The position numbers and the translations under genes are program-made. A stretch of 24,459 nucleotides of DNA from a virus: positions 1-24,459 of the IMG/VR virus record IMGVR_UViG_3300017708_002368. The stretch is one strand, 5' to 3'. Positions 2,536 to 22,141 of the stretch are shown one piece after another; positions within the stretch are counted from its first letter, which is position 1; each line of letters begins with the position of its first letter. Below the pieces are notes generated by a model, which made no database searches, was not told where the DNA came from, and saw nothing but the letters and a program-made list of their open reading frames with translations.

Positions 2536-3792
2536 TTAACATTTTATAAGATTACCATAATTTTTACCATTTTTACACTTTATTTTAAGATTAAATATAC
2601 GAAAAATTTCTTTAATTTTCTCTACTATTTCCTCTTCTTTTTTATCTACATCTAATAAAATACTATCGTAAGTATATAAAACAACCTTAGTTTGTTTACC
2701 TCGAAGTATCTTTAAGATATCATATAAGATAAGAACATTATTTGAAGTTTCCAAATTTTGCAGCAAGTAATTCATTAATTTTAATGAATTCATTTGCGGA
2801 TGATCTTTCTTTAAAAATCTATAATTAGATATTGGACATTCTATATAGCCTTTTGAATTAAATTCAGACCATAAATTATTAGAATATTTTTTTACTTTCT
2901 GGAAGAATGGAATATGTTCGTATTCAGATTTTATTCCTCCATATATTTGCTGAAATGTTAATTGTTTTGCTTTATCATATGATGTTTGATATACAGATGC
3001 AAAATATTCATGTATATCTTCAACTTCAAACTTATAATTAAGTAACTGACAAAGTAAAAGTACATGATAAGAAGAAACATCTATTTCTACAAAATAATCA
3101 TTTCTTGGTATAAAGCAATCCCTACTACCATTATCTTTATTTAAGGCAGCATAATTTACTTTCTTAAATGTATTAGATGGTCGAGTTGTTAGAGTTGTAT
3201 AATTATATTGAGTAAAAACAAAATCCTCTTTATTTTTATAAAAATGTTTTTCAAATAATTGTTTATTTATTTTTATACCACTTGACTCAATAACTGAGAA
3301 TACTAATGGTACTTTATTATTATAAAATGAATTATAATCAGTATCAATATGATCACTAATCTCCTCATACTTAGCTTCATAGTACTCATATATCTTTACT
3401 ATAGGGCAGTTTGAGTTAGATATTTTTCTTCTTTGAAAATCTTGTATAATTAAAGGGTAATCTATTTGTAACTCTTTGTAATTTATTTGTATATCAAATA
3501 GATTTCTATGTTTAAAGTTATGTAATAGTTTCTTTTTATCATAACAATAAAACTTAGATATTCCTTTAAGAAAATCTACTACATCTTTTTGTTCTAGATT
3601 ACAAGTTTCATAATGATTTACTGGTAAGATATATCCTTTTTTGTCGGTAATGGATCTAATATAATAACCTACTATTGATTGTTGGCAAGGATGATTATTA
3701 TAAAAATCGGGGATTACCTCTATATATAAGTCATTTCTACCAATATTAATAAAAGTATCAAACTGTTTTTTATTCTCTACCAACCAGTACAT
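2536..3792 (-). CDS. Reduced family A DNA polymerase
   Basis: This 418-residue protein carries the ordered motifs of a PolA palm and fingers. TRPS at residues 203-206 and FKKVNYAAL correspond to the TGRLSS/NLQNIP segment. Motif A is VEIDVSSYH (Asp238), followed by a DIHEYFA segment like the PolA DIH. The O-helix is KAKQLTFQQIYGG, where Lys276, Phe280 and Tyr284 align with E. coli Lys758, Phe762 and Tyr766. Motif C is TYDSILLDV (Asp376), which replaces the usual HDE. Residues 1-105 have the order of a DnaQ-type 3'-5' exonuclease domain (LYIEVIP, then GYILPVNHYE), but the metal-binding acidic residues are missing. The residue at the place of conserved Arg754 is Tyr272. It is much shorter than E. 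coli Pol I (928). It probably copies phage DNA, as T4 gp43 (family B) does, though a repair role or loss of activity cannot be excluded. Confidence 0.72.
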   Translation of the reverse strand: MYWLVENKKQFDTFINIGRNDLYIEVIPDFYNNHPCQQSIVGYYIRSITDKKGYILPVNHYETCNLEQKDVVDFLKGISKFYCYDKKKLLHNFKHRNLFDIQINYKELQIDYPLIIQDFQRRKISNSNCPIVKIYEYYEAKYEEISDHIDTDYNSFYNNKVPLVFSVIESSGIKINKQLFEKHFYKNKEDFVFTQYNYTTLTTRPSNTFKKVNYAALNKDNGSRDCFIPRNDYFVEIDVSSYHVLLLCQLLNYKFEVEDIHEYFASVYQTSYDKAKQLTFQQIYGGIKSEYEHIPFFQKVKKYSNNLWSEFNSKGYIECPISNYRFLKKDHPQMNSLKLMNYLLQNLETSNNVLILYDILKILRGKQTKVVLYTYDSILLDVDKKEEEIVEKIKEIFRIFNLKIKCKNGKNYGNLIKC

Positions 3793-3815: not shown

Positions 3816-4841
3816 CTAATAACCACCTCCTCCAGTAGAGTAGTTAGAAGAAAAACTAGTGCTGGTTTCTCTACGAGGAGTACCACTAGTTCCTAAATCT
3901 ATTGTAGTGGTATTTGTATATGAAATTTTATTAGTTTCATCTGTAGTTGGTTTGTCGGTAGTACTATAATCTTTACCTCCCATTGTACCATCTTCATAGA
4001 TTTGCATTTTATAAGATTTACACCAATATGCCTTTTTTATTACTGCATTCCATTTATTGCAATGATTTCTTTTTCTAAAAATGCAATTTGCACAATTTTG
4101 ATTAGCTGGGACTTCTGGATTAGCAATAGTATTATGATTACCAAATTGATAAGCAGGAGGGAGATTATCAGGAATTGATGTATAATCAATATAATTTCTT
4201 TTACCATTTACATAAATTATACCTATTTTATCTGAGAAATATTGATCCCAATCATCTCTAAAAAATGAAAATAATCCGTAAAAATTTCTACTATTTTCTA
4301 AATTACGTACTATATTTTTATTTATTAAAAAAATATCTTCTCTTTTTTTATTAGATATAGACCATCTTACCTTTATACCTCTATACAAAGTTTTGTTAAT
4401 TTTACTAGAGTTATTATTTAATAGTTCATAGTCTTCTTTGCTAATTTCATATAAAGTATTTTGATTTCTTTTTTTTGTAAAGTATCTAAAAAAGAATCCA
4501 TTAGTATAGTCATTTTGTGTTGGTTTAGTAAAGGTTGCGTTTGGCTTACGTATTGGTTTAAATTTATTTTCAGTAATAGTGTCATAAACTGATGTAGTAG
4601 GACCTGTTACCCTTTCAGGAAATACTAATGGTATATTTTCTAATTCATCTTGAGGTACTTCGATATCAAGAGGAATTAATCTTTGATTAGGTCCATCACT
4701 AGGGGTTCTACCTGTATATTTTTGACCTGTTGATTTTTTCCAATAATATCCTATATAAACAATATAATCAGGTACAGTAACAAATTCATTACCAGAAGTA
4801 AATAAATTAGATTTAATTTGATTTTTTGGTATATAGGTCAT
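3816..4841 (-). CDS. Putative baseplate protein with a four-cysteine cluster
   Basis: This 341-residue protein is hydrophilic, with an aromatic N-terminal part (DYIVYIGYYWKKSTGQKYTG) and low-complexity Thr/Ser and Gly stretches at the end (…STGGGGY). All four cysteines sit in one short segment: 250, 253, 261 and 274 (C-x2-C-x7-C-x12-C), with WC at the last. This is close to the spacing of high-potential iron-sulfur proteins and could bind a 4Fe-4S cluster or zinc. I do not recognise the rest. It follows the two hub genes with a 16-base gap, so a baseplate or tail-tip role is the natural reading, but this rests on position only. It is the last structural gene before the replication block. Confidence 0.65.
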   Translation of the reverse strand: MTYIPKNQIKSNLFTSGNEFVTVPDYIVYIGYYWKKSTGQKYTGRTPSDGPNQRLIPLDIEVPQDELENIPLVFPERVTGPTTSVYDTITENKFKPIRKPNATFTKPTQNDYTNGFFFRYFTKKRNQNTLYEISKEDYELLNNNSSKINKTLYRGIKVRWSISNKKREDIFLINKNIVRNLENSRNFYGLFSFFRDDWDQYFSDKIGIIYVNGKRNYIDYTSIPDNLPPAYQFGNHNTIANPEVPANQNCANCIFRKRNHCNKWNAVIKKAYWCKSYKMQIYEDGTMGGKDYSTTDKPTTDETNKISYTNTTTIDLGTSGTPRRETSTSFSSNYSTGGGGY

Positions 4842-4857: not shown

Positions 4858-7800
4858 TTATCCAGAAACTAAATCACCTCCAAATATAAATATTTGGTTT
4901 AAATCTACTGTATCACCGAGAGTAAAATAAGAAAGTACCTGTTTCCAATAACTATCAGGTACTACTTGACATCCTGCACTCCATTGACCTACCTTAGCTC
5001 CACCTCCTGCTCTGTGGAAAAACATACCATACCGGCCGTTTTTAATTGTGTGTTTATCAAAGATTAAATCCCTATTAGGGTCTCTATATACATCATATTT
5101 TTTTTTATCTCTAAAATAAGGCAGTTTTGATAAAGCTTTTTGAGATCCATCATTTTTATATAACGGTGTATCAGTTAGTTTATGACTTTGTAAAACTTGT
5201 TGATTTTCTCTCATTGCTCCTGTACCAGCAGATGCTGCTAAATTTTTCCACCAGTAAGCTCCTGGAATAGTTGATGCGGGGGCTATATAGACTATTTCAC
5301 CGTTAATTACTACACAACATAAATCAGTAAATTTATCATCAATTATTTCATCTGTTCTAATCCAAATAATTCCTTTTTCAGTAGGATATGTAAATCCTAA
5401 TTCTTGAAATTTGGCTTTAGTAATTCTTGTTAAATCTGCAGCTGATGCGCCTCCTAATACTGTTTCTAATGAAGGAGAGGTTTGACCAGGGTATAGTGAA
5501 GATGCTGCTCCACCAGCAATATTAGCTGCTCCTGCTCTTATATCAGATCTAGCCTGGAATAATTTTTGTTGAGCATTAAATTCAGCATCATTTAGTTCTT
5601 GTTGAGCTTCAGCTATAATTGATGCTAGTTTATCTGCTGTTATTTCAGCTAAACTTTTAACCGGTATATTACTGTCGGTTGGTATACTGAATGATTGTAA
5701 TTTAGTTATCCATTCTTTATTATTTATCTCGTGAGTATAACCTTTTAATATAAAATCTAATGTATCAGAATACTGTGTTGGTAAAAATGATGAATTAATA
5801 GTATAAGTTTGGAATACTTTTATACCTGATAATCCGTCAATTGTTAAATCTAAACTAATTGGTATTATTCCATTAGCAGGTGATGTACCTCCTTGATCTC
5901 TATTTACAATAGCTGTTAAAGCTTGTTCAGTAGTAAGATATTTAGTTAATGCATTTTTAGTTTGCTCTATATATTTAGCTTTTACCTTTTCATCGTTTTG
6001 ATAAAGTTTATTAGCTAATGTCATTAATTGGTTTAAATTATCCTGAAGGGTTTCTTTAGCGCTACCAGCATTTTTTTCATTAGAGGTAGATACAACTAAT
6101 GCTGGTAATACAGTATCTTCTAAACCTTTATTCCAGCTAGCAAAATTAGTGGCATCAAATCCAGGTGTATAGCCTGCATCTTGAGCTCCTATAGTAATTA
6201 TAGTTTCTAATTCTTTTGGTATTTTAGTTTTTATACCAAAGTCTTTTACCATACTTGCTAATTTCTCATCTTTGGAAAAACCATAGACTTCAAATTCAAC
6301 ATTGTCTACTTCATTGATTCCATTGTTTACTAAATTTTGTATTTTTTTTCTACCAGGAAAAGGACATTCATCTATTATAAATGCTATACCAGTTTCTTCA
6401 TCTATTTTTACAGCTAAGCGATTTATACTACCTAATGCTTCATTAATTTTAAATAAAATTTCTTCTACATGATCCTTTACTGATATTTTAGCATCTTTAT
6501 TTTTAGCTGAGTTGTAACATAGTTCTGCTAAGAAATTCATTTGCAGATATATATTCATTATATCACCTACCATAAAGCCTCCTTTACTTACTTTAAAATC
6601 CCTATAGTGGTCCTCAGTTAATATTGGAGCAGGACCACCTACATTTTTAACTAAGCAAACAAGAGGATCTGCAGATATTTGAAATGGATGAGTATTACAA
6701 AAAAATCTATCTTGCCTATTATCAAATTTAATAGGACTATTTTGTGTATCTACAATACTTGATAAGCCTGTTTTATTAGAGTCTTTATCAATAAATCCTA
6801 AAGTAAATTTATTTAGAATATCAAGATAGTATCCTAAGCTAATATATTTATCATCTGTAAATCCCAAACCTAGAGTATCATCTTCTGATCCTTGAACTTT
6901 AATATCAAAAATATCTGCAGGTTTAGATTTAGTAAAATCAGGTTTATCTTTATTAATATTATCTAAATAGTATTTCCATGGATTACCTCCACCTAAAGAA
7001 CTTCTATTAGCGAAAGATCCGCCCCTTGAAGAATTATATAATCCATCATAAAACATATATAATATTCCATTTATATCTGTAATATCTTTAGCATTTTTTA
7101 AAAATTTCTTATCTATATCTGGTACTTCAGGAGGATCGGGTTCTTCATCTCCTCCAAATAAAAAAGAGAAAAAATTTGTAAATACTCCAATTATAGAGTC
7201 TACTAGACTACCACCGACTTCTCCATCTTTAGGAAAAACTTTTTTAGTATTAATATAAAAACTATCCATTAAGTCACCATAACTAATAATGGTTAAGTTA
7301 ATACTATATACTCCATTTTTATCAAGTTTAAAATCAAAATTAGTTACTTTTCCTACTATACCATCATAATGTCCTTGATATTGTATTTTAGATGCTAATA
7401 TTGAATTTTGAATAGCTTGTATATTATCATCAGCTTGATCATTTATTTTTTCTGCTTCTTGTTTTGCTTTACCTTCTAATGATTCATATGCTTCATCTGA
7501 AGCATTTACTATTTTTTTATTATAAAAAATTAATTGAGAAGTATCAATTTTAAAATTATTATCCTCAAACCAATACTTATCAATTATAGTACCACCAGTA
7601 TTTCTTACTTCACCACTCCTTGAAATATAAAGATTATGTCCAAATTCAACTATTACTGTATATCCTAATCTTAAGTATAAGAGTTCTATAATATCAAATT
7701 GTTGTTTATTATATGCTTTAATACTAAGTTGAGCTTCTTTTAGATTACCTAATCTACCTTTTGTTCTAACTCTTAAATTGGTGATACCAGGCATTGGTTT

Positions 7801-8154
7801 ATATCCGAAATCAGTACCTCCTATACCATAAGCTCCAGAGAATCCTTTTCCTATTCCTGCTCTTGTATTATTTGTACCCACAGCGGTCCCGCCAAATAAA
7901 ACAAAATTTTTAGCTAGCTTTCTTCCAGTAAATTGATTAAGACCAGATCTAGATAGTTTTTTTGCTCCTTCATTAGTTACCTTAACAGATGATGCCATTT
8001 TAATCCATGGTTTTCTATTATTTACATAATTTATTTCTTCAGAAGATCGATTAGTAGATTTACTTAATATTTTTTGTCTATTAAGTATGGAACGTTTTGT
8101 CCATCTATACATCCCCTCTCCTATAGAACATGGATTTGTACCTGCTATTGACAT
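4858..8154 (-). CDS. Baseplate hub protein with L,D-transpeptidase-like domain
   Basis: This 1098-residue protein is paralogous to the next upstream gene over about residues 1-885. Shared landmarks are PWIK, a GYKPMP segment near residue 120, YNKQQFDIIELLYLRLGY, NTKKVFPKDGE, FGGDEEPDPPE, NGILYMFYDGLYNS, DDKYISLGYYLDILNKFT and GDIMNIYLQMN. That part fits a gp27-like tail hub. The last 180 residues are different. They contain VYRDPNRDLIFD and then FFHRAGG…VGQWSAGCQVV, with His1047, Ser1059 and Cys1062, the arrangement of the YkuD/L,D-transpeptidase fold. The domain probably cuts or rearranges peptidoglycan peptides during penetration. A helical joint (LNDAEF…ARSDIRAGAA, about 855-877) precedes it. 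It starts 13 bases after the preceding hub gene, so the two are probably translated from one message. Confidence 0.78.
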   Translation of the reverse strand: MSIAGTNPCSIGEGMYRWTKRSILNRQKILSKSTNRSSEEINYVNNRKPWIKMASSVKVTNEGAKKLSRSGLNQFTGRKLAKNFVLFGGTAVGTNNTRAGIGKGFSGAYGIGGTDFGYKPMPGITNLRVRTKGRLGNLKEAQLSIKAYNKQQFDIIELLYLRLGYTVIVEFGHNLYISRSGEVRNTGGTIIDKYWFEDNNFKIDTSQLIFYNKKIVNASDEAYESLEGKAKQEAEKINDQADDNIQAIQNSILASKIQYQGHYDGIVGKVTNFDFKLDKNGVYSINLTIISYGDLMDSFYINTKKVFPKDGEVGGSLVDSIIGVFTNFFSFLFGGDEEPDPPEVPDIDKKFLKNAKDITDINGILYMFYDGLYNSSRGGSFANRSSLGGGNPWKYYLDNINKDKPDFTKSKPADIFDIKVQGSEDDTLGLGFTDDKYISLGYYLDILNKFTLGFIDKDSNKTGLSSIVDTQNSPIKFDNRQDRFFCNTHPFQISADPLVCLVKNVGGPAPILTEDHYRDFKVSKGGFMVGDIMNIYLQMNFLAELCYNSAKNKDAKISVKDHVEEILFKINEALGSINRLAVKIDEETGIAFIIDECPFPGRKKIQNLVNNGINEVDNVEFEVYGFSKDEKLASMVKDFGIKTKIPKELETIITIGAQDAGYTPGFDATNFASWNKGLEDTVLPALVVSTSNEKNAGSAKETLQDNLNQLMTLANKLYQNDEKVKAKYIEQTKNALTKYLTTEQALTAIVNRDQGGTSPANGIIPISLDLTIDGLSGIKVFQTYTINSSFLPTQYSDTLDFILKGYTHEINNKEWITKLQSFSIPTDSNIPVKSLAEITADKLASIIAEAQQELNDAEFNAQQKLFQARSDIRAGAANIAGGAASSLYPGQTSPSLETVLGGASAADLTRITKAKFQELGFTYPTEKGIIWIRTDEIIDDKFTDLCCVVINGEIVYIAPASTIPGAYWWKNLAASAGTGAMRENQQVLQSHKLTDTPLYKNDGSQKALSKLPYFRDKKKYDVYRDPNRDLIFDKHTIKNGRYGMFFHRAGGGAKVGQWSAGCQVVPDSYWKQVLSYFTLGDTVDLNQIFIFGGDLVSG
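6802..6859 (-). repeat. 58-base near-identical segment, copy in the L,D-transpeptidase-type hub
   Basis: This segment encodes part of YISLGYYLDILNKFT and is identical to 10193-10250 except for one base. The surrounding paralogous sequence is clearly more diverged at the DNA level. Confidence 0.7.
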
Positions 8155-8167
8155 ATTTTTTATTTAT

Positions 8168-11100
8168 TTAAGTTGTTGAATAATAGCTTGGTAGATAAGA
8201 TGGTTGTTTACCTGTTTTATCGATTCTAGATCCTATTAATGCAATAGCCATGGTAGCAACTGATACTTTAGATGTTGATGGATTGGGTCCTTGACCCCCA
8301 TAATATGCTCCTTTACCTGTTCCAGTAGCGGCATCTCCAACTATAGTTCCGTTTGATAATTTTATAACTGGCATTGATGCAAACTCATATCCTAAATCTT
8401 GAACAGCATCTGAAAGATCTTTTAGAGATCCTTCATTTTTACCTAATAAATAATTTCCTGCAGATCTTCTTTTTTGTGTAAATAAATAATCTCCTAATGC
8501 CTCTTGATTTTCTACATTAAATATTTTAGATTTAAAATCTGGGTTTTTTGATAAGAAGCTTTTCATAGTACCAGGAATAATTTGATATTTACCAGTAGCA
8601 AATCCTGCTCCTTTACCTGTTTGTCTTTGAAATTTAGTATTAATCCAATTAAAGGTTTGAGTTGTTATATCAGATATTCCACCAGCAGAGTATGCTTTTA
8701 AACCATCAGTAGATGCTCCGCTTCCTCCACTTACTCCGTAATTAAATATACCATAATTTCCTCTAGATTCAAATTTAGCTACTAAGTTTTTAACTCTTTG
8801 TATACTTCCAGGACTAGCTGTCTTAGCTAAGGTAAGATTATCAGCATTAATTTCTTGACCTACTCCTTGACCTAAACCTAATCCGCCTGCACCTCCGCCT
8901 AATCCTACTCCTCCAGCAGCTCCACCTCTAACAGCTGATCTTGAATCAAATAGGCTTGATTGTGCTGCAAATTCCGCATCATTTTTTTCTTGTTCAGCTT
9001 CAGATATAATAGTAGCTAATGTACTAGCATCCATCTTATACCATGGTTCATCTAGAGGTTTTTCTTGTGGAGAAGGGATAGAAAAAGATTCTAATTTAGT
9101 AGTCCATCCATTTTGATCTACTTGATGTGAATATTTTTTTAAAATAAAATCAAATGCTTTTGGATATGAAGCTGGTAGAAAACTGTTAGGAACTGTATAG
9201 GTTTGAAATACTTTCATACCAGATAATCCATCTATAGTTAATTCTAAACTTATTGGTAAAAATCCTGTAAGTGGTGATGATCCTCCAGTTTCTTTTTGCT
9301 CTGCAGCATGAACTGATTGTTCAGCCATTACTACTTCTCTTAATACATTTTTAGTTTGACTTGTATATTTTAATTTTACTTTTTCATCATTCTTGTACAG
9401 CTTATTAGCTAAGCTAGATAAACTATTTAGTTTTTCTTTATATTCATCTTTATAGCTTGCTAAATCATTAGAATTTTGAGTAGCTACTATTAAGCTTGGC
9501 ATTACAGTATCTTCTAATCCTTCATTCCAATTAGCAAATGAAGTTGAATCGTATCCTGCAGTTATTCCTGTTCTATTTTTACCGATAGTAATCATAGTTG
9601 ATAAACTATTATCAATTTTTGATTTTATACCAAAATCTCTAACAAATGATCCTCTATCTCCTTCAAATCCATATACTAAAAATTCTACCGGTTTAGGATT
9701 ATTAGCTCCTGGATTAATATAATCAGTAATTAATCTTCTACCTGGTATTGGATTTTCATCAAAAATATATAATTTACCAGTATTCTCATCGCATTTTACT
9801 CTAAGTCGATTTAATCCTCCTAATGATTCAGATACAGCATTTAATATAGTTTCTATATGATCTTTTACTGTTATTTTAGAGTCTTTATTTTTTGCTGCAT
9901 TGTAACATAATTCAGCTAAATAATTCATTTGAAGATATATGTTCATAATGTCTCCTACTAAAATACCATTTTTTCTTACTTTAAAATCTCTATATTGATC
10001 ATCAGTAATAATACTAGCAGGAGCTCCTGTATTTTTAATTAAGCATATAGTAGGATCTCCTGATATTTGATAAAAACTAGTATTACAGAAAAAAGTATCT
10101 TGACTATTATCAAACTGTATAGGACCATTTTCTGAATCTGCATTAGGTTCAAAACCTGTAATACCTTCAGTACCAGCTTCAATAAATCCCATAGTAAATT
10201 TATTTAGAATATCAAGATAGTATCCTAAACTAATATATTTATCATCTGTATATCCTTCCCCTTTTTCATCATCTGCAGAACCTACTGTCTTTATATCAAA
10301 TATATCAGCCGGACTAGTACCTTTGAACGCTGCTGTGTTATCCTCATTTACATTTTCTGTATAAAATTTCCAGGGGTTTCCTCCTCCTATATTTTTTCTG
10401 TTAGCATATGGAGTACTTCTTAAAGAATTATATAATCCATCATAAAACATATAAAGTATTCCATTAACATCTGTAACATCTTTAGCATTTTTTAAAAACT
10501 TCCTATCTACATCTGGTATTTCAGGAGGGTCGGGTTCTTCATCTCCTCCAAATAAACTAGAAAAGAAATTTACTGCTTTACCTATTAAACCTTCAACTAA
10601 ACCTTTACCTATTTCTCCATCCTTAGGAAACACTTTTTTAGTATTTACAAAAAATCCATCTACCAAATCACCATATGTAATAACTTTTAAAGTTATTTGA
10701 TATACTCCATTACTATTTAAGTCCCAACTAAAATTAGATATTTTTCCTATCATTCCCTCATAGTTACCTACATATCTTTTTTTAATATCTAGTAGTAATT
10801 TTTGAGCTTCCATTATATTTTTTTGAACAGCAGCATTAGCTCTTTTAGAAGCTAAATTTCTTAAATCTTGTGCTTTAGCTCCTAATTTATCATCAGCTCC
10901 TAAAGCTTTTGAAATACCTCCTACCTGATCAGATGCTGTTTGATATCTACCAGCTAATCTGGAAGTATTATTTATAGAGGAAATAGTTTCAGCAGGTATT
11001 TCAAAAAATGCATTATCAAACCAAGTTGTATCTGTCATTGTAGGACCCATTTGTCTAACTTGATTATTATTAGTAACATATTGATTGTTACCAAATTCTA

Positions 11101-11617
11101 ATAGTACGGAATAACCTAACCTTAGATAAAGTAATTCTATAATATCAAATTGCTGTTTATTATATGCAAATATTTTTATTATAGCTTCTTTTAAACCTCC
11201 ATAATTACCTTTAGTTGATATAGTTACTGATTCGATAGCTGGCATTGGTTTATATCCGAAGTCTTTTCCACCTATACCGTAAGCTACATCATTTCCTAAA
11301 CCTATACCTGATCTGAAGCCTTCTCCTAATCCGTTTCCTGTATTAATTGATACACCGTTAAATAACACAAAATTTTTAGCTAGATTTCTTCCTCCACCAT
11401 ATTGCAATAAACCAGTTTTTGCTAGTTTAGCAGTATCTTTTACACTTACAGAAGAGGCTAATTTAATCCAAGGTTTTTTATTATTAAGAAAATTTATCTC
11501 TTCAGGAGTTCTGTTTTCTTTTTTACCATAGATTTTTTGTCTTGCGTCAACTTGTTTCTTAACCCATTTTAGCATCCCTTCTCCTGGTAGAGATGGATTT
11601 GCACCTATTGTAGACAT
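8168..11617 (-). CDS. Baseplate hub protein with lysozyme-like domain
   Basis: This 1149-residue paralogue of the following hub gene is alike over about residues 1-900 (same order of GYKPMP, QQFDIIELLYLRLGY, FPKDGE, GGDEEPDPPE, YISLGYYLDILNKFT and MNIYLQMN). A glycine-rich linker (about 903-920) leads to a lysozyme-fold domain. This begins with KFESRGNYG, where Glu950 is the likely general acid. It continues with FATGKYQIIPGTM (about 1006-1018) and the helix DAVQDLGYEFASMP (about 1070-1083), an order resembling the lambda R / GH104 transglycosylase group. It should cleave glycan strands of peptidoglycan. In T4 this job is done by gp5; no separate gp5-like spike with a beta-helix is present here. 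A TATTTATT element lies directly before the ATG. The exact glycosidase family is uncertain. Confidence 0.78.
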   Translation of the reverse strand: MSTIGANPSLPGEGMLKWVKKQVDARQKIYGKKENRTPEEINFLNNKKPWIKLASSVSVKDTAKLAKTGLLQYGGGRNLAKNFVLFNGVSINTGNGLGEGFRSGIGLGNDVAYGIGGKDFGYKPMPAIESVTISTKGNYGGLKEAIIKIFAYNKQQFDIIELLYLRLGYSVLLEFGNNQYVTNNNQVRQMGPTMTDTTWFDNAFFEIPAETISSINNTSRLAGRYQTASDQVGGISKALGADDKLGAKAQDLRNLASKRANAAVQKNIMEAQKLLLDIKKRYVGNYEGMIGKISNFSWDLNSNGVYQITLKVITYGDLVDGFFVNTKKVFPKDGEIGKGLVEGLIGKAVNFFSSLFGGDEEPDPPEIPDVDRKFLKNAKDVTDVNGILYMFYDGLYNSLRSTPYANRKNIGGGNPWKFYTENVNEDNTAAFKGTSPADIFDIKTVGSADDEKGEGYTDDKYISLGYYLDILNKFTMGFIEAGTEGITGFEPNADSENGPIQFDNSQDTFFCNTSFYQISGDPTICLIKNTGAPASIITDDQYRDFKVRKNGILVGDIMNIYLQMNYLAELCYNAAKNKDSKITVKDHIETILNAVSESLGGLNRLRVKCDENTGKLYIFDENPIPGRRLITDYINPGANNPKPVEFLVYGFEGDRGSFVRDFGIKSKIDNSLSTMITIGKNRTGITAGYDSTSFANWNEGLEDTVMPSLIVATQNSNDLASYKDEYKEKLNSLSSLANKLYKNDEKVKLKYTSQTKNVLREVVMAEQSVHAAEQKETGGSSPLTGFLPISLELTIDGLSGMKVFQTYTVPNSFLPASYPKAFDFILKKYSHQVDQNGWTTKLESFSIPSPQEKPLDEPWYKMDASTLATIISEAEQEKNDAEFAAQSSLFDSRSAVRGGAAGGVGLGGGAGGLGLGQGVGQEINADNLTLAKTASPGSIQRVKNLVAKFESRGNYGIFNYGVSGGSGASTDGLKAYSAGGISDITTQTFNWINTKFQRQTGKGAGFATGKYQIIPGTMKSFLSKNPDFKSKIFNVENQEALGDYLFTQKRRSAGNYLLGKNEGSLKDLSDAVQDLGYEFASMPVIKLSNGTIVGDAATGTGKGAYYGGQGPNPSTSKVSVATMAIALIGSRIDKTGKQPSYLPSYYSTT
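10193..10250 (-). repeat. 58-base near-identical segment, copy in the lysozyme-type hub
   Basis: Partner of 6802-6859, with one mismatch. It may mark a recent exchange between the two genes or strong constraint on this part of the hub fold. Confidence 0.7.
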
Positions 11618-11644: not shown

Positions 11645-12091
11645 TTAATACCCTCCTGATGATATTGTTTGACCAATACCTGAAGAACCGTTAGATATAC
11701 CATTATTACTTGTTGGAGTAGATATTGTTGCTTGACCATTACCCAATCCTGATTTATTTCTAGTAATATTTAAATTATAATCTAAAACTAGATTTGTATT
11801 ATTAATTCGATCAAATTCTCCTAGTATACTATTAACTCCAGATGGCACTCTAATTCTTTTTTCAGTAGGAGGAAATATTGTAAATAAATCCATTCCAGGA
11901 TTAGCTATAGCTATAATCCACCATAAAGATTGATCTTTATAAAATCTTAACGCTAAAGTATCTAATCTATCAGTTTCAGTAGCATACATATAAGTATCAT
12001 TTTCTGAAAGAGGTATTTCAGGATATCTTATATTTCTGTATGCTCTTTCTCCTGTAGGAGCAAAAATGAATGGTATATTATCATATCTCAT
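11645..12091 (-). CDS. 53: gp53-like baseplate wedge protein with LysM domain
   Basis: This 148-residue protein has IRYPEIPLSENDTYM followed by a LysM-like unit at about residues 34-84: DRLDTLALRFYKDQSLWWIIAIAN, then LFTIFPPTEKRIRVPS. The YxD-LWW-I-IAN pattern is typical of LysM units in phage baseplate proteins such as T4 gp53 and the P2 gpX group. The C-terminal third is a low-complexity Asn/Gly/Ser tail. The protein probably helps to join the baseplate wedge to the hub or tube. It starts three bases after the stop of the 946-residue gene and ends 27 bases before the first hub gene, inside the baseplate block. The family assignment is from motif and context; a general tail-X protein is the alternative. 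Confidence 0.75.
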   Translation of the reverse strand: MRYDNIPFIFAPTGERAYRNIRYPEIPLSENDTYMYATETDRLDTLALRFYKDQSLWWIIAIANPGMDLFTIFPPTEKRIRVPSGVNSILGEFDRINNTNLVLDYNLNITRNKSGLGNGQATISTPTSNNGISNGSSGIGQTISSGGY

Positions 12092-18519: not shown

Positions 18520-18825
18520 TTATTTATAGCTAGGAGCAGAACGACCAGGCATTCCTTTAGGTTCAGCAGCTTTAAATTGAGAACGATTAATTTTACCTTC
18601 AGAGTCTACTAAAGTAGATGATGTACTAGTATTACTAGACTTATCATATTGCTTACGCTCGTTTTCATAATGTTCTTGTATTTCATGATAAACGTACTTA
18701 CGTAACCATATAGGCATGTTATATACAGTATCTAAATCATATCCACCCTTCCCATAGAAAACTATCTGATGGAGAACTGTAAATAGATTTTTTCTATATT
18801 GAGCTGCGTTACTCGAGGTCAGGAT
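18520..18825 (-). CDS. +1-frame tail chaperone extension of the gp26-like gene
   Basis: The first ATG of this frame is at 18717 and would give a 65-residue protein starting MPIWLRKYVYHEIQEHYENE. The frame is open upstream to 18924, and the residues before that ATG look like real protein: NAAQYRKNLFTVLHQIVFYG, then KGGYDLDTVYN, in register with MPIWLR. No ATG, GTG or TTG lies in the upstream part and no good ribosome-binding site precedes the ATG at 18717. The frame is +1 (or -2) relative to the gp26-like gene and overlaps its end. The best reading is a C-terminal extension made by frameshifting, like the gpG-gpGT tail chaperones next to lambdoid tape measures. The coordinates given assume a slip at TTTT (18826-18829). 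Initiation at 18717 or at an unusual codon is the alternative. Confidence 0.6.
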   Translation of the reverse strand: MLTSSNAAQYRKNLFTVLHQIVFYGKGGYDLDTVYNMPIWLRKYVYHEIQEHYENERKQYDKSSNTSTSSTLVDSEGKINRSQFKAAEPKGMPGRSAPSYK

Positions 18826-19534
18826 AAAAGAACTGCGGAGTAATTGGGAGGTTGATACCTTTAACGAGTTCTTCTGGAAAAAAAAATAAATCGATATCTG
18901 GAGAGATTTCTTTAATATAAGATCTTAATGCTCTGGAGTCCATTGCTAGTAGAGTATTATCTACAAATGAACGAACTGCTTTTGGAGTATCATCACCATC
19001 TACTGATGTAATAATATACTTTAATCTAGTTGATAGTTCAAAAGCATCTTTACGTACTCTTTTAAGACCTTTGATTTCATTATCGATAGCTCTTTCATCT
19101 TTATGAGTTAAAAGCTTAAATGTAATAGGTACTTTAGAATGCGGTAGAAGAAAGTCAAAATTATTAACTCCTTTCTCTACTTCTTTATGTAATTCCTTTT
19201 CTTCGAATTCTGATAGATCTACAGTAAATTCTTTTCCTGAATATTCAAATGAATATTCTTTACCATAAGATAAGATACGAGCGGCAATCATAATACCGTT
19301 TTTATCACCAATCAAAAGATCTTCGTATTTAATATCTGAAATGATTAAGGATTGCATTAGTTTATCTAATACAATTCCTTTTTCGATATATGTTTGATTT
19401 GTTAGAATATCTTCTTCTCTAGCAGTCATATATTTCATCTCAATCTCTCCTTTAGCAAGAGGATTTTCAGCATCATATAATACTCCTTTAGAAGGTAGTG
19501 TCACGATTTCCGTAGGAAACTTAGGTGCGGCCAT
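18809..19534 (-). CDS. 26: gp26-like baseplate hub / tail assembly protein
   Basis: This 241-residue protein fits the T4 gp26 baseplate-protein family. It starts with PTEIVTLPSKGVLYDAENPL, continues with GEIEMKYMTAREEDILTNQT (about 29-48), has an acidic/aromatic middle and ends INLPITPQFFYPDLE. Members are needed to assemble the hub and appear to act beside the tape measure. In this phage the gene lies two positions before the tape measure, and its 3' end overlaps a second frame that seems to extend it. It contains a nine-base T run (coding strand) at 18886-18878, encoding FFF, and a TTTT at 18829-18826, seven to eight codons before the stop. A TATTTAATAA-like element lies about 20 bases before the ATG. 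The family assignment is from remembered motifs and context. Confidence 0.72.
   Translation of the reverse strand: MAAPKFPTEIVTLPSKGVLYDAENPLAKGEIEMKYMTAREEDILTNQTYIEKGIVLDKLMQSLIISDIKYEDLLIGDKNGIMIAARILSYGKEYSFEYSGKEFTVDLSEFEEKELHKEVEKGVNNFDFLLPHSKVPITFKLLTHKDERAIDNEIKGLKRVRKDAFELSTRLKYIITSVDGDDTPKAVRSFVDNTLLAMDSRALRSYIKEISPDIDLFFFPEELVKGINLPITPQFFYPDLE
18826..18829 (-). other. TTTT, possible +1 slip site near the end of the gp26-like gene
   Basis: The gp26 frame reads CAG TTC TTT TAT CCT here. TTT followed by T allows an exact +1 re-pairing of tRNA-Phe. This site keeps the family-like ending LPITPQFF and would give a fused product of about 337 residues, so I prefer it to the T9 run upstream. 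Confidence 0.4.
18878..18886 (-). other. T9 run, possible slippage site
   Basis: On the coding strand this reads TTA TTT TTT TTT CCA in the gp26 frame. A tRNA-Phe on the last TTT could move forward one base to TTC, giving the frame that continues through the downstream 65-residue protein. RNA polymerase slippage on the same run is also possible. Use of this site would replace the last 20-odd residues of the gp26-like protein. Confidence 0.35.
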
Positions 19535-19553
19535 AAATTTTATTTTTTAAAAC

Positions 19554-19567
19554 TATTATTATTAAAT
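19554..19567 (-). promoter_or_regulatory. Variant element before the gp26-like gene
   Basis: Coding-strand TATATTTAATAATA, about 20 bases before the ATG. It has one exchange in the core compared with the common form. Confidence 0.25.
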
Positions 19568-19587
19568 ATAACTAATTATTGCTAACT

Positions 19588-20076
19588 TTAGAAGTTAAGC
19601 ACGCAATAATCAGGAGTTACTGTCATTGTCAATTCTTGTGCCTCTCCTTCACTAGCCCAATCATACTCTCCGAATGCAGCATCTTTAATATATGCTCCTT
19701 TAATAATCCATTCGGAAACGATATCACCAACAGGTCCAAGAACGTTGAAAGTTAAATCTTTTTTATAGAAATCAGAATATCCATCTCTACCAGTAACAGA
19801 TTCATGGTGTAGACGTACCCACTCCATTACAGCCTGAGCTCCAGAGGGTGTGATTGGATCATATAATGTAATACCGATATCTGACCATTTAGTCATTCCT
19901 TTAATTTTACGATATACATTAATGTGATTCAAAGTCACCTCACCATTTTCTACCTTGATCTCCCCTACTTTCTTTACCATGAAAGTTGGAAACCCGTCCA
20001 TGAACATAATAAACCTATTCTTCTGTTTTGGTTCAAATGCGGTAAAAAATATTTCGTTACTGTCTAATACTGGCAT
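19588..20076 (-). CDS. 19: Tail tube protein
   Basis: This 162-residue protein matches T4 gp19 in size and pattern. The N-terminus, AFEPKQKNRFIMFMDGFPTF, is the typical opening strand of the tube fold. It is followed by NHINVYRKIKGMTKWSDIGITLYDP, the segment GAQAVMEWVRLHHESVTGRDGY, and KGAYIKDAAFGEYDWASEGEAQELTMTVTPDYC near the end. Hexameric rings of this protein form the inner tube through which DNA passes. It lies immediately after the sheath gene (49-base gap), the usual gp18-gp19 order. A TATTTATAAT element lies 19 to 30 bases before its ATG, which would suit separate, strong expression of an abundant protein. Confidence 0.9.
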   Translation of the reverse strand: MPVLDSNEIFFTAFEPKQKNRFIMFMDGFPTFMVKKVGEIKVENGEVTLNHINVYRKIKGMTKWSDIGITLYDPITPSGAQAVMEWVRLHHESVTGRDGYSDFYKKDLTFNVLGPVGDIVSEWIIKGAYIKDAAFGEYDWASEGEAQELTMTVTPDYCVLNF

Positions 20077-20094
20077 GTTCTATATTTAATGTTC

Positions 20095-20106
20095 TATTAT
20101 AAATAG
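20095..20106 (-). promoter_or_regulatory. TATTTATAAT element before the tail tube gene
   Basis: Coding-strand CTATTTATAATA, 18 bases before the ATG. At this distance a -10-like role (TATAAT) is sterically possible. Confidence 0.45.
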
Positions 20107-20125
20107 TCGATAACTAATTTTTTAT

Positions 20126-22141
20126 TTATTCTGGAAATTCAGCTCCTGTAGGTAAGATGTTGAAATCTAAGATGATGAATTCGGCGGTTCTAGTTGGTTG
20201 GATAAATATCTGACCTACTAATTGGTTTCTATCGATTACATCAGCTGTATTATTTGTTTCATCCATTACTACTTTGAAGGCAAATAATCCCTGTCTTTCT
20301 TGAACTGAAGCTAAGTAAGGATTAACTTGTGCTAAGAAGTTATTTCTTGTAGCTACTGTATTCTGTTCGAATACTAAGTTATCTGCTACTCCAGAAATAA
20401 ATCCTTTAAGTGCGATTAATAATCTTCTTACATTTACTCTATCTAATGCTGAGGCTTTTTTCTGAGTAGTCTTTTGTCCGAATACTACTACACCTGCGTT
20501 AGGGAAGGTAGCAATAGGATTAATATTATTATCATAAAGATCATCTCTATTACCTTGTGTTAATCTTCTTTCTGCTCTGATTACCCCTGGTAGTGAACCT
20601 CTGTTAATTCCTGCTGGAGCAAACCACGGTTCAGCGACTGAATCATTAAAGGCAAATACTCCTCCCATCATTGCTGATGCTGGTACGAATACTGTGGCTG
20701 CAGAATCTGGATCTACAGTTTGTAGCCATGGCCAATAAACCGCAGCATAAGAGGTATTTAAGTTAACAGTTGCTCCTGTTACATCAAGAATGTTCTTACC
20801 GTAAAATACTGGATCTTGAATAGCCATAAAGTCTCCTCTAGATCTTGCATTATCTCTAATTTGAGTTAATTGACTGGAATGGTTACCACTTTCTATATAT
20901 AATCCAGGTGTTAATAAAAGATTATATCTATAAGAATCTTTATTATTTAAAAGATTAATAGCATTATCATAATCAGATCCTATAAGTCCTTGTGTATCCG
21001 TTGAATTAATAGTTTCATAATAATTTCCTGCTCTTTCACTTGGAATAATATCTCCTGAAGCGCTCTCGAAAGATCCGCTTTGATTAACTGGTAGAGAGCT
21101 AGTAAGTTCATTTTTAGGCGTACCGTTATTATCAAAGTAGTTAGGAGTAAGTTTACTTACACTTTTAACTCTTACAAATTTAGATCTATTAGCAAATGAT
21201 CCACTAACTTGTAGATAAAATTCTCCTGAGTCAGAAAGTAAGGTTTCTGTAATATCACCTATTCTTTTACTAATAAAGTCTTGAGAAAAAGGATCTAAAT
21301 TTACATTTGTAAATGACTCCAAAATAACTTTTTCATTTGTTAAATCATTCCCTCTTCTAATTAATACTGTGAATGTACCTGATGAAGAATTGGCTGCAGT
21401 GATTTCATATCTAAGATTATCCTTAGTACCTGATGGTAGTAAACCGTTAGAGCCTTGTGAGGAGGTACTATTTTGTATAATACCTTCTGATAATGTTTCT
21501 AATTCAAATGGTTCAGCATTTACTAGATCATCTAAAGTTAAAGTAATAGTTAGATCTGAACCATCCCCAGTAGTTGCACCAAGAGATTGAGATGTAATAG
21601 TAATTGTTTCACCGACGACAAATCCCGTTCCTGCGCTACATGAAATTTGAGTAGCTGTTGTACCACCTACTGCAGTTGTAATACTTGCTGTAAATAATGC
21701 TCCATTACCAGATGTAGCTGAAGCAGAAATTGCAAAAGTACCACCTGCAGCTGATCCTGAGAAAGAGCTTAACGATGTTAATAATTCGTTAATTCCTGTT
21801 TTAATCTCTCCTGTGATAGCGTTACTATCAATCTTAGTGCTAACGGCTGGTGTAAATGATCCGGAAGTTACTCTTGTTACTAGTAGTGTAGTACCTCCTT
21901 GTTGGAAATAATTATATGCAGCAATTGATGTTAAATATGTATATTGATTACTACCACTTTCAAAGGTAGATCCAAAGGTATTTAAATATTCTGAATATGA
22001 TGTAACGAGTCTTGGTCTTTCTACAGGTCCTTTTACAGCGGGACCAATAATTGCTGTTCCTGCTTCTAAAGGTTGATTTTGAATAAACGATAGATCATTT
22101 TCTCTCGCTAGTACACCAGGTGATATAAGTACGTCAGCCAT
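20126..22141 (-). CDS. 18: Tail sheath protein
   Basis: This 671-residue protein is close to the 659 residues of T4 gp18. The N-terminus has SPGVLARENDLSFIQNQ and GTAIIGPAVKGPVERP, typical of sheath proteins. Between about residues 95 and 230 lies an inserted Ser/Thr/Gly-rich beta-type segment containing GFVVGETITITSQSLGATTG. The C-terminal half holds the conserved sheath core: YWPWLQTVDPDSAATVFVPA, GGVFAFNDSVAEPWFAPAG, DRVNVRRLLIALKGFISGVA, FEQNTVATRNNFLAQVNPYL and FIQPTRTAEFIILDFNI near the end. It polymerises around the tube and contracts on infection. It precedes the tube gene, and a TATTTATTAA element lies about 20 to 31 bases before its ATG. Confidence 0.92.
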   Translation of the reverse strand: MADVLISPGVLARENDLSFIQNQPLEAGTAIIGPAVKGPVERPRLVTSYSEYLNTFGSTFESGSNQYTYLTSIAAYNYFQQGGTTLLVTRVTSGSFTPAVSTKIDSNAITGEIKTGINELLTSLSSFSGSAAGGTFAISASATSGNGALFTASITTAVGGTTATQISCSAGTGFVVGETITITSQSLGATTGDGSDLTITLTLDDLVNAEPFELETLSEGIIQNSTSSQGSNGLLPSGTKDNLRYEITAANSSSGTFTVLIRRGNDLTNEKVILESFTNVNLDPFSQDFISKRIGDITETLLSDSGEFYLQVSGSFANRSKFVRVKSVSKLTPNYFDNNGTPKNELTSSLPVNQSGSFESASGDIIPSERAGNYYETINSTDTQGLIGSDYDNAINLLNNKDSYRYNLLLTPGLYIESGNHSSQLTQIRDNARSRGDFMAIQDPVFYGKNILDVTGATVNLNTSYAAVYWPWLQTVDPDSAATVFVPASAMMGGVFAFNDSVAEPWFAPAGINRGSLPGVIRAERRLTQGNRDDLYDNNINPIATFPNAGVVVFGQKTTQKKASALDRVNVRRLLIALKGFISGVADNLVFEQNTVATRNNFLAQVNPYLASVQERQGLFAFKVVMDETNNTADVIDRNQLVGQIFIQPTRTAEFIILDFNILPTGAEFPE

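Follow-up and report, generated by a model that had tools for sequence, protein, structure and literature searches.

Tandem gp27-type hub genes of an uncultured contractile-tailed virus carry two different putative wall enzymes

The stretch of DNA considered here, which we call the window, is a 24.5 kb fragment of the genome of an uncultured virus (an IMG/VR record), and it holds a contractile tail module on the minus strand. The gene order runs from sheath, tube and a phrog_150 gene to a 1057-aa gene, a gp25-like wedge gene, two hub genes, a 341-aa gene and finally genes of DNA metabolism. PHROG matches to the sheath, tube and phrog_150 "baseplate hub" genes (18809..22141, minus strand) place the hub pair within the contractile tail module. 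The 1057-aa gene occupies the position of the tape measure gene in relatives, and the wedge gene that adjoins the hubs (11645..12091, minus strand) matches phrog_7145, baseplate wedge, with E 9e-7. Sheath, tube and gp25-like genes are found upstream in the order looked for around a gp27-type hub, and relatives are ordered alike.

Immediately downstream of the hubs lies the 341-aa gene (3816..4841, minus strand), which is conserved in the hub family. The product of the window's gene has a cysteine cluster, CANCIFRKRNHCNKWNAVIKKAYWCKSY, that is common to a second contig, L001, and missing in four more distant aligned relatives; in the counterparts from L003 and L004 an HxH-type stretch, YHIHPEKGPMVGAVH, replaces this region. 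The cluster may bind metal, possibly in the manner of an iron-sulphur or spike-tip site. The neighboring 418-aa protein (2536-3792, minus strand) gives a weak match to DNA polymerase A (E 6e-4, under the cut-off), and similar genes follow the hub modules of L001, L002 and L004.

The downstream hub copy, P0001 (1098 aa; 4858-8154, minus strand), and the upstream copy, P0002 (1149 aa; 8168-11617, minus strand), are encoded in the same direction with 13 bases between them. An earlier note, made from the sequence, had described two adjacent genes of these lengths whose products are alike over about 890 residues and then diverge after a common "NDAEF" helix, and this description holds: BLASTP aligns the two proteins from residue 1 to shortly beyond the helix with 494 of 901 identities (55%, E = 0), and finds no similarity C-terminal to it. 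Such likeness is far above chance, and the DNA is also 70% alike over 1920 bases. The NDAEF motif starts at residue 855 of P0001 and 879 of P0002; in the latter, alignment, sequence and structural model place it in a long C-terminal core helix (residues 864-900; 8918..9028, minus strand), after which the tails differ, and alignment and sequence locate the same helix in P0001 at 5527..5637 (minus strand). Identity is distributed along the whole core, with a minimum at about residues 183-270, as would be expected if both proteins occupied the same site in the baseplate. The two are paralogues arising from a tandem duplication. An assembly artefact was considered as the source of the pair and rejected, given that the copies are just 70% alike in DNA and that L001, an independent contig, is arranged alike.

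The part common to both proteins is, according to its predicted structure, a gp27-type baseplate hub. A Pfam scan of P0001 and P0002 finds no curated family in either, and PDB sequence searches with the hub core and with both tails return noise only, so that comparison of folds was needed for core and tails. The full-length AlphaFold2 model of P0002, a monomer whose input alignment comprised 59 sequences, has good confidence across most of residues 10-850; two MAFFT alignments in which hub cores were mixed with tail relatives (A8 and A9) were misaligned and left out of the folding. The best VIA match to the core is the hub of A-1(L) (Z 13.1, 261 residues, rmsd 3.2), T4 gp27 follows with Z 11.6, and the gp27 double-barrel fold is recovered with Z 11-13 over 220-300 residues against the A-1(L), PVC, T4, Mu, P1 and pyocin R2 hubs. 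Nearly all of the top 50 VIA structures are hubs, whether baseplate hubs from phages and injection systems or VgrG proteins from T6SS, and Foldseek concurs. The hub-type common part that the earlier note had supposed is thus borne out in prediction, which was run on P0002 and gives the N-terminal fold expected of it. Model, VIA and a profile family of 59 hubs delimit the core of P0002 to residues 1-897 (8927..11617, minus strand), and 55% identity to the modelled P0002, together with membership of the same profile family, extends the assignment to residues 1-871 of P0001 (5542..8154, minus strand).

Beyond the helix, P0001 ends in a predicted domain of the L,D-transpeptidase fold (residues 905-1095; 4870..5442, minus strand), assigned from a model, VIA and an alignment of 27 relatives. 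The model of this tail (pLDDT 83, pTM 0.84) retrieves solved L,D-transpeptidase-fold proteins in 50 of 50 VIA rows, with Z up to 8.9 and rmsd 3.4 over 128 residues, and its best Foldseek match is 8qzg, a 1,3 L,D-transpeptidase (E 4e-4). The predicted catalytic residues His1047 (5014-5016), Ser1059 (4978-4980) and Cys1062 (4969-4971, all on the minus strand) are, with Gly1061, invariant in the alignment of 27, and the His ... Ser-x-Gly-Cys motif looked for in a YkuD fold is accordingly present. The match to Pfam YkuD (PF03734) reaches 15.4 bits (E 0.03), below the curated cut-off of 23.4; judged by its model, the tail is a relative of the YkuD fold and no curated YkuD member. It belongs to phage family phrog_3000, and elsewhere the domain is mostly a free lysin-like protein of ~180-225 aa, crAss-like phages included, with several of these free relatives carrying peptidoglycan-binding domains. 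Scanning viral contigs with the tail alone found nothing; alignments were needed. Among the single hubs described below, L023 (8228-11284) and L039 (3092-6463) carry a C-terminal DUF5675, which in L039 has a short His ... Ser-x-Gly-Cys stretch in common with the P0001 tail (hhalign E 0.0015, probability 17%).

Enzymes of the L,D-transpeptidase fold variously cut peptides, trim them or, as the true cross-linkers do, join them, and the evidence for the P0001 tail therefore reaches as far as "peptide-bond enzyme" and no further. We regard it as a putative cysteine enzyme, of a kind that acts on peptides, with stem peptides or cross-links as its substrate. Of what the earlier note had said of this tail, the Cys-type L,D-transpeptidase-like domain stands on the model, the VIA rows and the invariant His, Ser and Cys; as that note had further supposed, the domain may degrade the wall.

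The tail of P0002 opens with a Gly/Ala-rich linker of low pLDDT (8813..8926, minus strand), followed by what alignment A12 and hhalign identify as a lambda-R-like lysozyme domain (residues 938-1120; 8258..8806, minus strand), a putative glycan-strand enzyme of a kind that cuts sugar chains. The predicted catalytic residue, Glu950 (8766-8768), is conserved in at least 90% of the 37 relatives in A12, and the AxGxYQ motif is invariant. The tail profile matches lambda R in hhalign (85.9%, E 5e-6) over 69 columns that cover the GxYQ and WAS motifs, the lambda R counterpart of Glu950 falling outside the match. The full-length model does not resolve the fold of this tail, which is therefore called a lysozyme on sequence grounds. 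Here, too, a scan of viral contigs with the tail alone found nothing and alignments were needed. The lysozyme-like domain with Glu950 that the earlier note had placed at the end of P0002 is upheld; all four residues that it had named in the two tails are found at the positions given, and neither C-terminal domain matched a non-enzymatic binding module.

Relatives of the P0002 tail mostly sit within larger proteins, of up to ~1450 aa, and at least one of these is an annotated phage tail protein, the late-control-D protein of cyanophage S-CAM7 (L094, 5092-6990). This protein places the lysozyme domain family of P0002 on a gpD-type tail protein and, unlike P0002, combines its lambda-R-like lysozyme domain with an Amidase_5/CHAP domain in a single chain.

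How common is such a pair? We surveyed some 80 hub loci, the best 80 of 405 relatives; among these best 80, two hub genes occur in the window and L001 only, and the ~70 other hub loci, with 16 large records (51-172 kb) among them, have one. No genome with the hub was found in the genome collection searched. The single hubs (L002-L088), including that of Flavobacterium phage immuto (L009, annotated "carboxypeptidase"), belong to the hub family of the window pair, with their genes ordered alike and an enzyme slot at the C-terminus, and differ in having one hub gene where the window has two. The host group is probably Bacteroidota, judged solely from one cultured relative, phage immuto. The tails of single hubs include M15, M23, CHAP, Amidase_2, Phage_lysozyme2, GH19, DUF5675 and others, and one chain (L002, 9992-13414) has Phage_lysozyme2 inserted mid-chain and an M15 peptidase at its end. 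The varied tails and the L002 chain together identify the hub C-terminus as a swap slot, and indicate that two activities have been reached by more than one route.

The second pair lies on L001 (7.8 kb), the only close relative of the window pair, which has the same two hub genes in the same order and a matching gene after them; its upstream copy lacks the start, where the contig ends. In a tree of 59 hub cores the upstream copies of window and L001 join (100/98), as do the downstream copies (100/100), and the tree places a single duplication before the split of window and L001, with divergence and then enzyme replacement to follow. Core identity between orthologues is ~70%, and both copies have been under purifying selection (dN 0.207, dS 0.951; dN 0.230, dS 0.896). 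In L001 the tail of the upstream copy is GH19 (E 1.1e-7) and that of the downstream copy M23 (E 8.8e-14), each match scoring above its curated cut-off. That orthologous tails are diverged forms of one enzyme was rejected (hhalign 0.3% and 0.5%). In window and L001 alike, then, the upstream tail is glycan-type and the downstream tail peptide-type, though both enzymes differ. What is new here is this retention of a tandem hub pair in a second virus, where unrelated enzymes fill the same two roles. The class pattern is drawn from just two pairs (n=2). Glycan-type tails make up about a quarter of the classifiable ones in the hub family, at which rate the chance of two complementary pairs is ~1/7; statistical support for enzyme complementarity is weak, and we do not claim it.

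We think it rather probable that these are paralogous gp27-type hubs from one ancient duplication, each with a different wall enzyme in its C-terminal slot, and that both are made and incorporated together. A tandem duplication of the hub gene would have been retained in a lineage of contractile-tailed phages, and the slots filled by a putative lysozyme upstream and a transpeptidase-fold enzyme downstream. Because the genes follow each other in tandem and in one direction at a distance of 13 bases, and neither an invertible nor a regulatory element was noticed there, both proteins should be made together. They would then be assembled jointly, and the tandem genes and conserved core point most simply to a mixed trimer of P0001 and P0002 in one hub, by which one tail could bring glycan and peptide activities to the wall at injection. 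Against this account as a whole stand the ~70 relatives, among the best 80 of 405, that do with one hub gene, as well as the small number of pairs, the YkuD match under cut-off and a VIA Z that is moderate. A stronger form, in which the mixed trimer is obligate and kept because it equips every tail with both a glycan-cutting and a peptide-cutting enzyme, each swapped freely within its role, is possible, and we lean slightly against it.

The same gene arrangement bears on the idea that each virion instead builds a homotrimer of one copy, giving a population with two kinds of tail that hedges against differences in host walls. The presence of two complete hubs with separate enzymes would suit such a bet, as would the very frequent swapping of the enzyme slot in the family, which selection of the enzyme by the type of host wall would predict; yet tandem, co-directional genes with nothing noticed to switch them argue against it, as does the fact that nothing known separates the two copies during assembly, and we consider it unlikely. 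It is also improbable that the duplication is neutral or transient and the complementarity a coincidence of frequent tail swaps. Swapping is indeed rampant among single hubs and two complementary pairs by chance are just mildly unlikely, but the duplication is older than the split of the two viruses, and both copies are intact and under purifying selection.

An old duplication with both copies conserved in two lineages might also mean that the copies have specialised for separate, perhaps stacked, baseplate sites, each as a homotrimer. To our knowledge, solved hubs form one trimer ring. The hub of A-1(L), a homotrimer in one ring, is a case in point (PMC10966104). Since the whole core, NDAEF helix included, is kept in both copies and suggests the same surroundings, we hold separate sites to be quite unlikely. 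Least probable is that the P0001 tail does not open the wall but closes or reshapes cross-links at the site of puncture: the fold has true cross-linking enzymes and Foldseek ranks a 1,3 L,D-transpeptidase first, but the carboxypeptidases Bd1075, Pgp2 and Csd6 are among the top VIA rows, the L001 downstream copy bears an M23 peptidase, and relatives of the tail occur as free proteins of lysin-like kind, several of which bind the wall through domains of their own.

Contractile-tail hubs are treated as homotrimers. A retained hub pair with unrelated, role-conserved enzymes would be a natural test of whether phage hubs can be heteromeric, and of whether wall opening at entry requires the cutting of two bond types. 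In this family the C-terminus of the hub is a general slot for enzymes, and its contents list the entry enzymes of uncultured phages whose hosts are probably Bacteroidota.

In the literature searched, we found no multi-enzyme or mixed-trimer hub described for two tandem phage hub genes. The multi-enzyme phage hub as such is already known: gp15 of Anabaena myophage A-1(L) (PDB 8kea) carries several wall enzymes on one chain, with two domains assayed active (PMC10966104). It is the nearest structural match of the window core, is likewise gp27-type, and also has a C-terminal peptidase domain, but all of its enzymes ride on one homotrimer chain, whereas P0001 and P0002 have a single enzyme domain each, on two paralogous hubs. 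T4 shares the gp27 fold and a tail tip that delivers lysozyme; its hub, however, is enzyme-free and its single lysozyme sits on gp5, while the window hubs carry enzyme domains of their own. In type VI secretion, VgrG paralogues have different C-terminal effectors, and mixed trimers have been inferred from genetics (PMC8668125 and references therein). Like the window hubs, these are gp27-like (and, in VgrG, trimeric) paralogues with different C-terminal domains; they differ in serving a secretion system whose effectors are mostly toxins against rivals, where the window would supply a virion with a wall-opening pair from tandem genes. The window pair resembles the A-1(L) type of multi-enzyme hub only if both chains act together, in which case two chains would do here what A-1(L) does on one.
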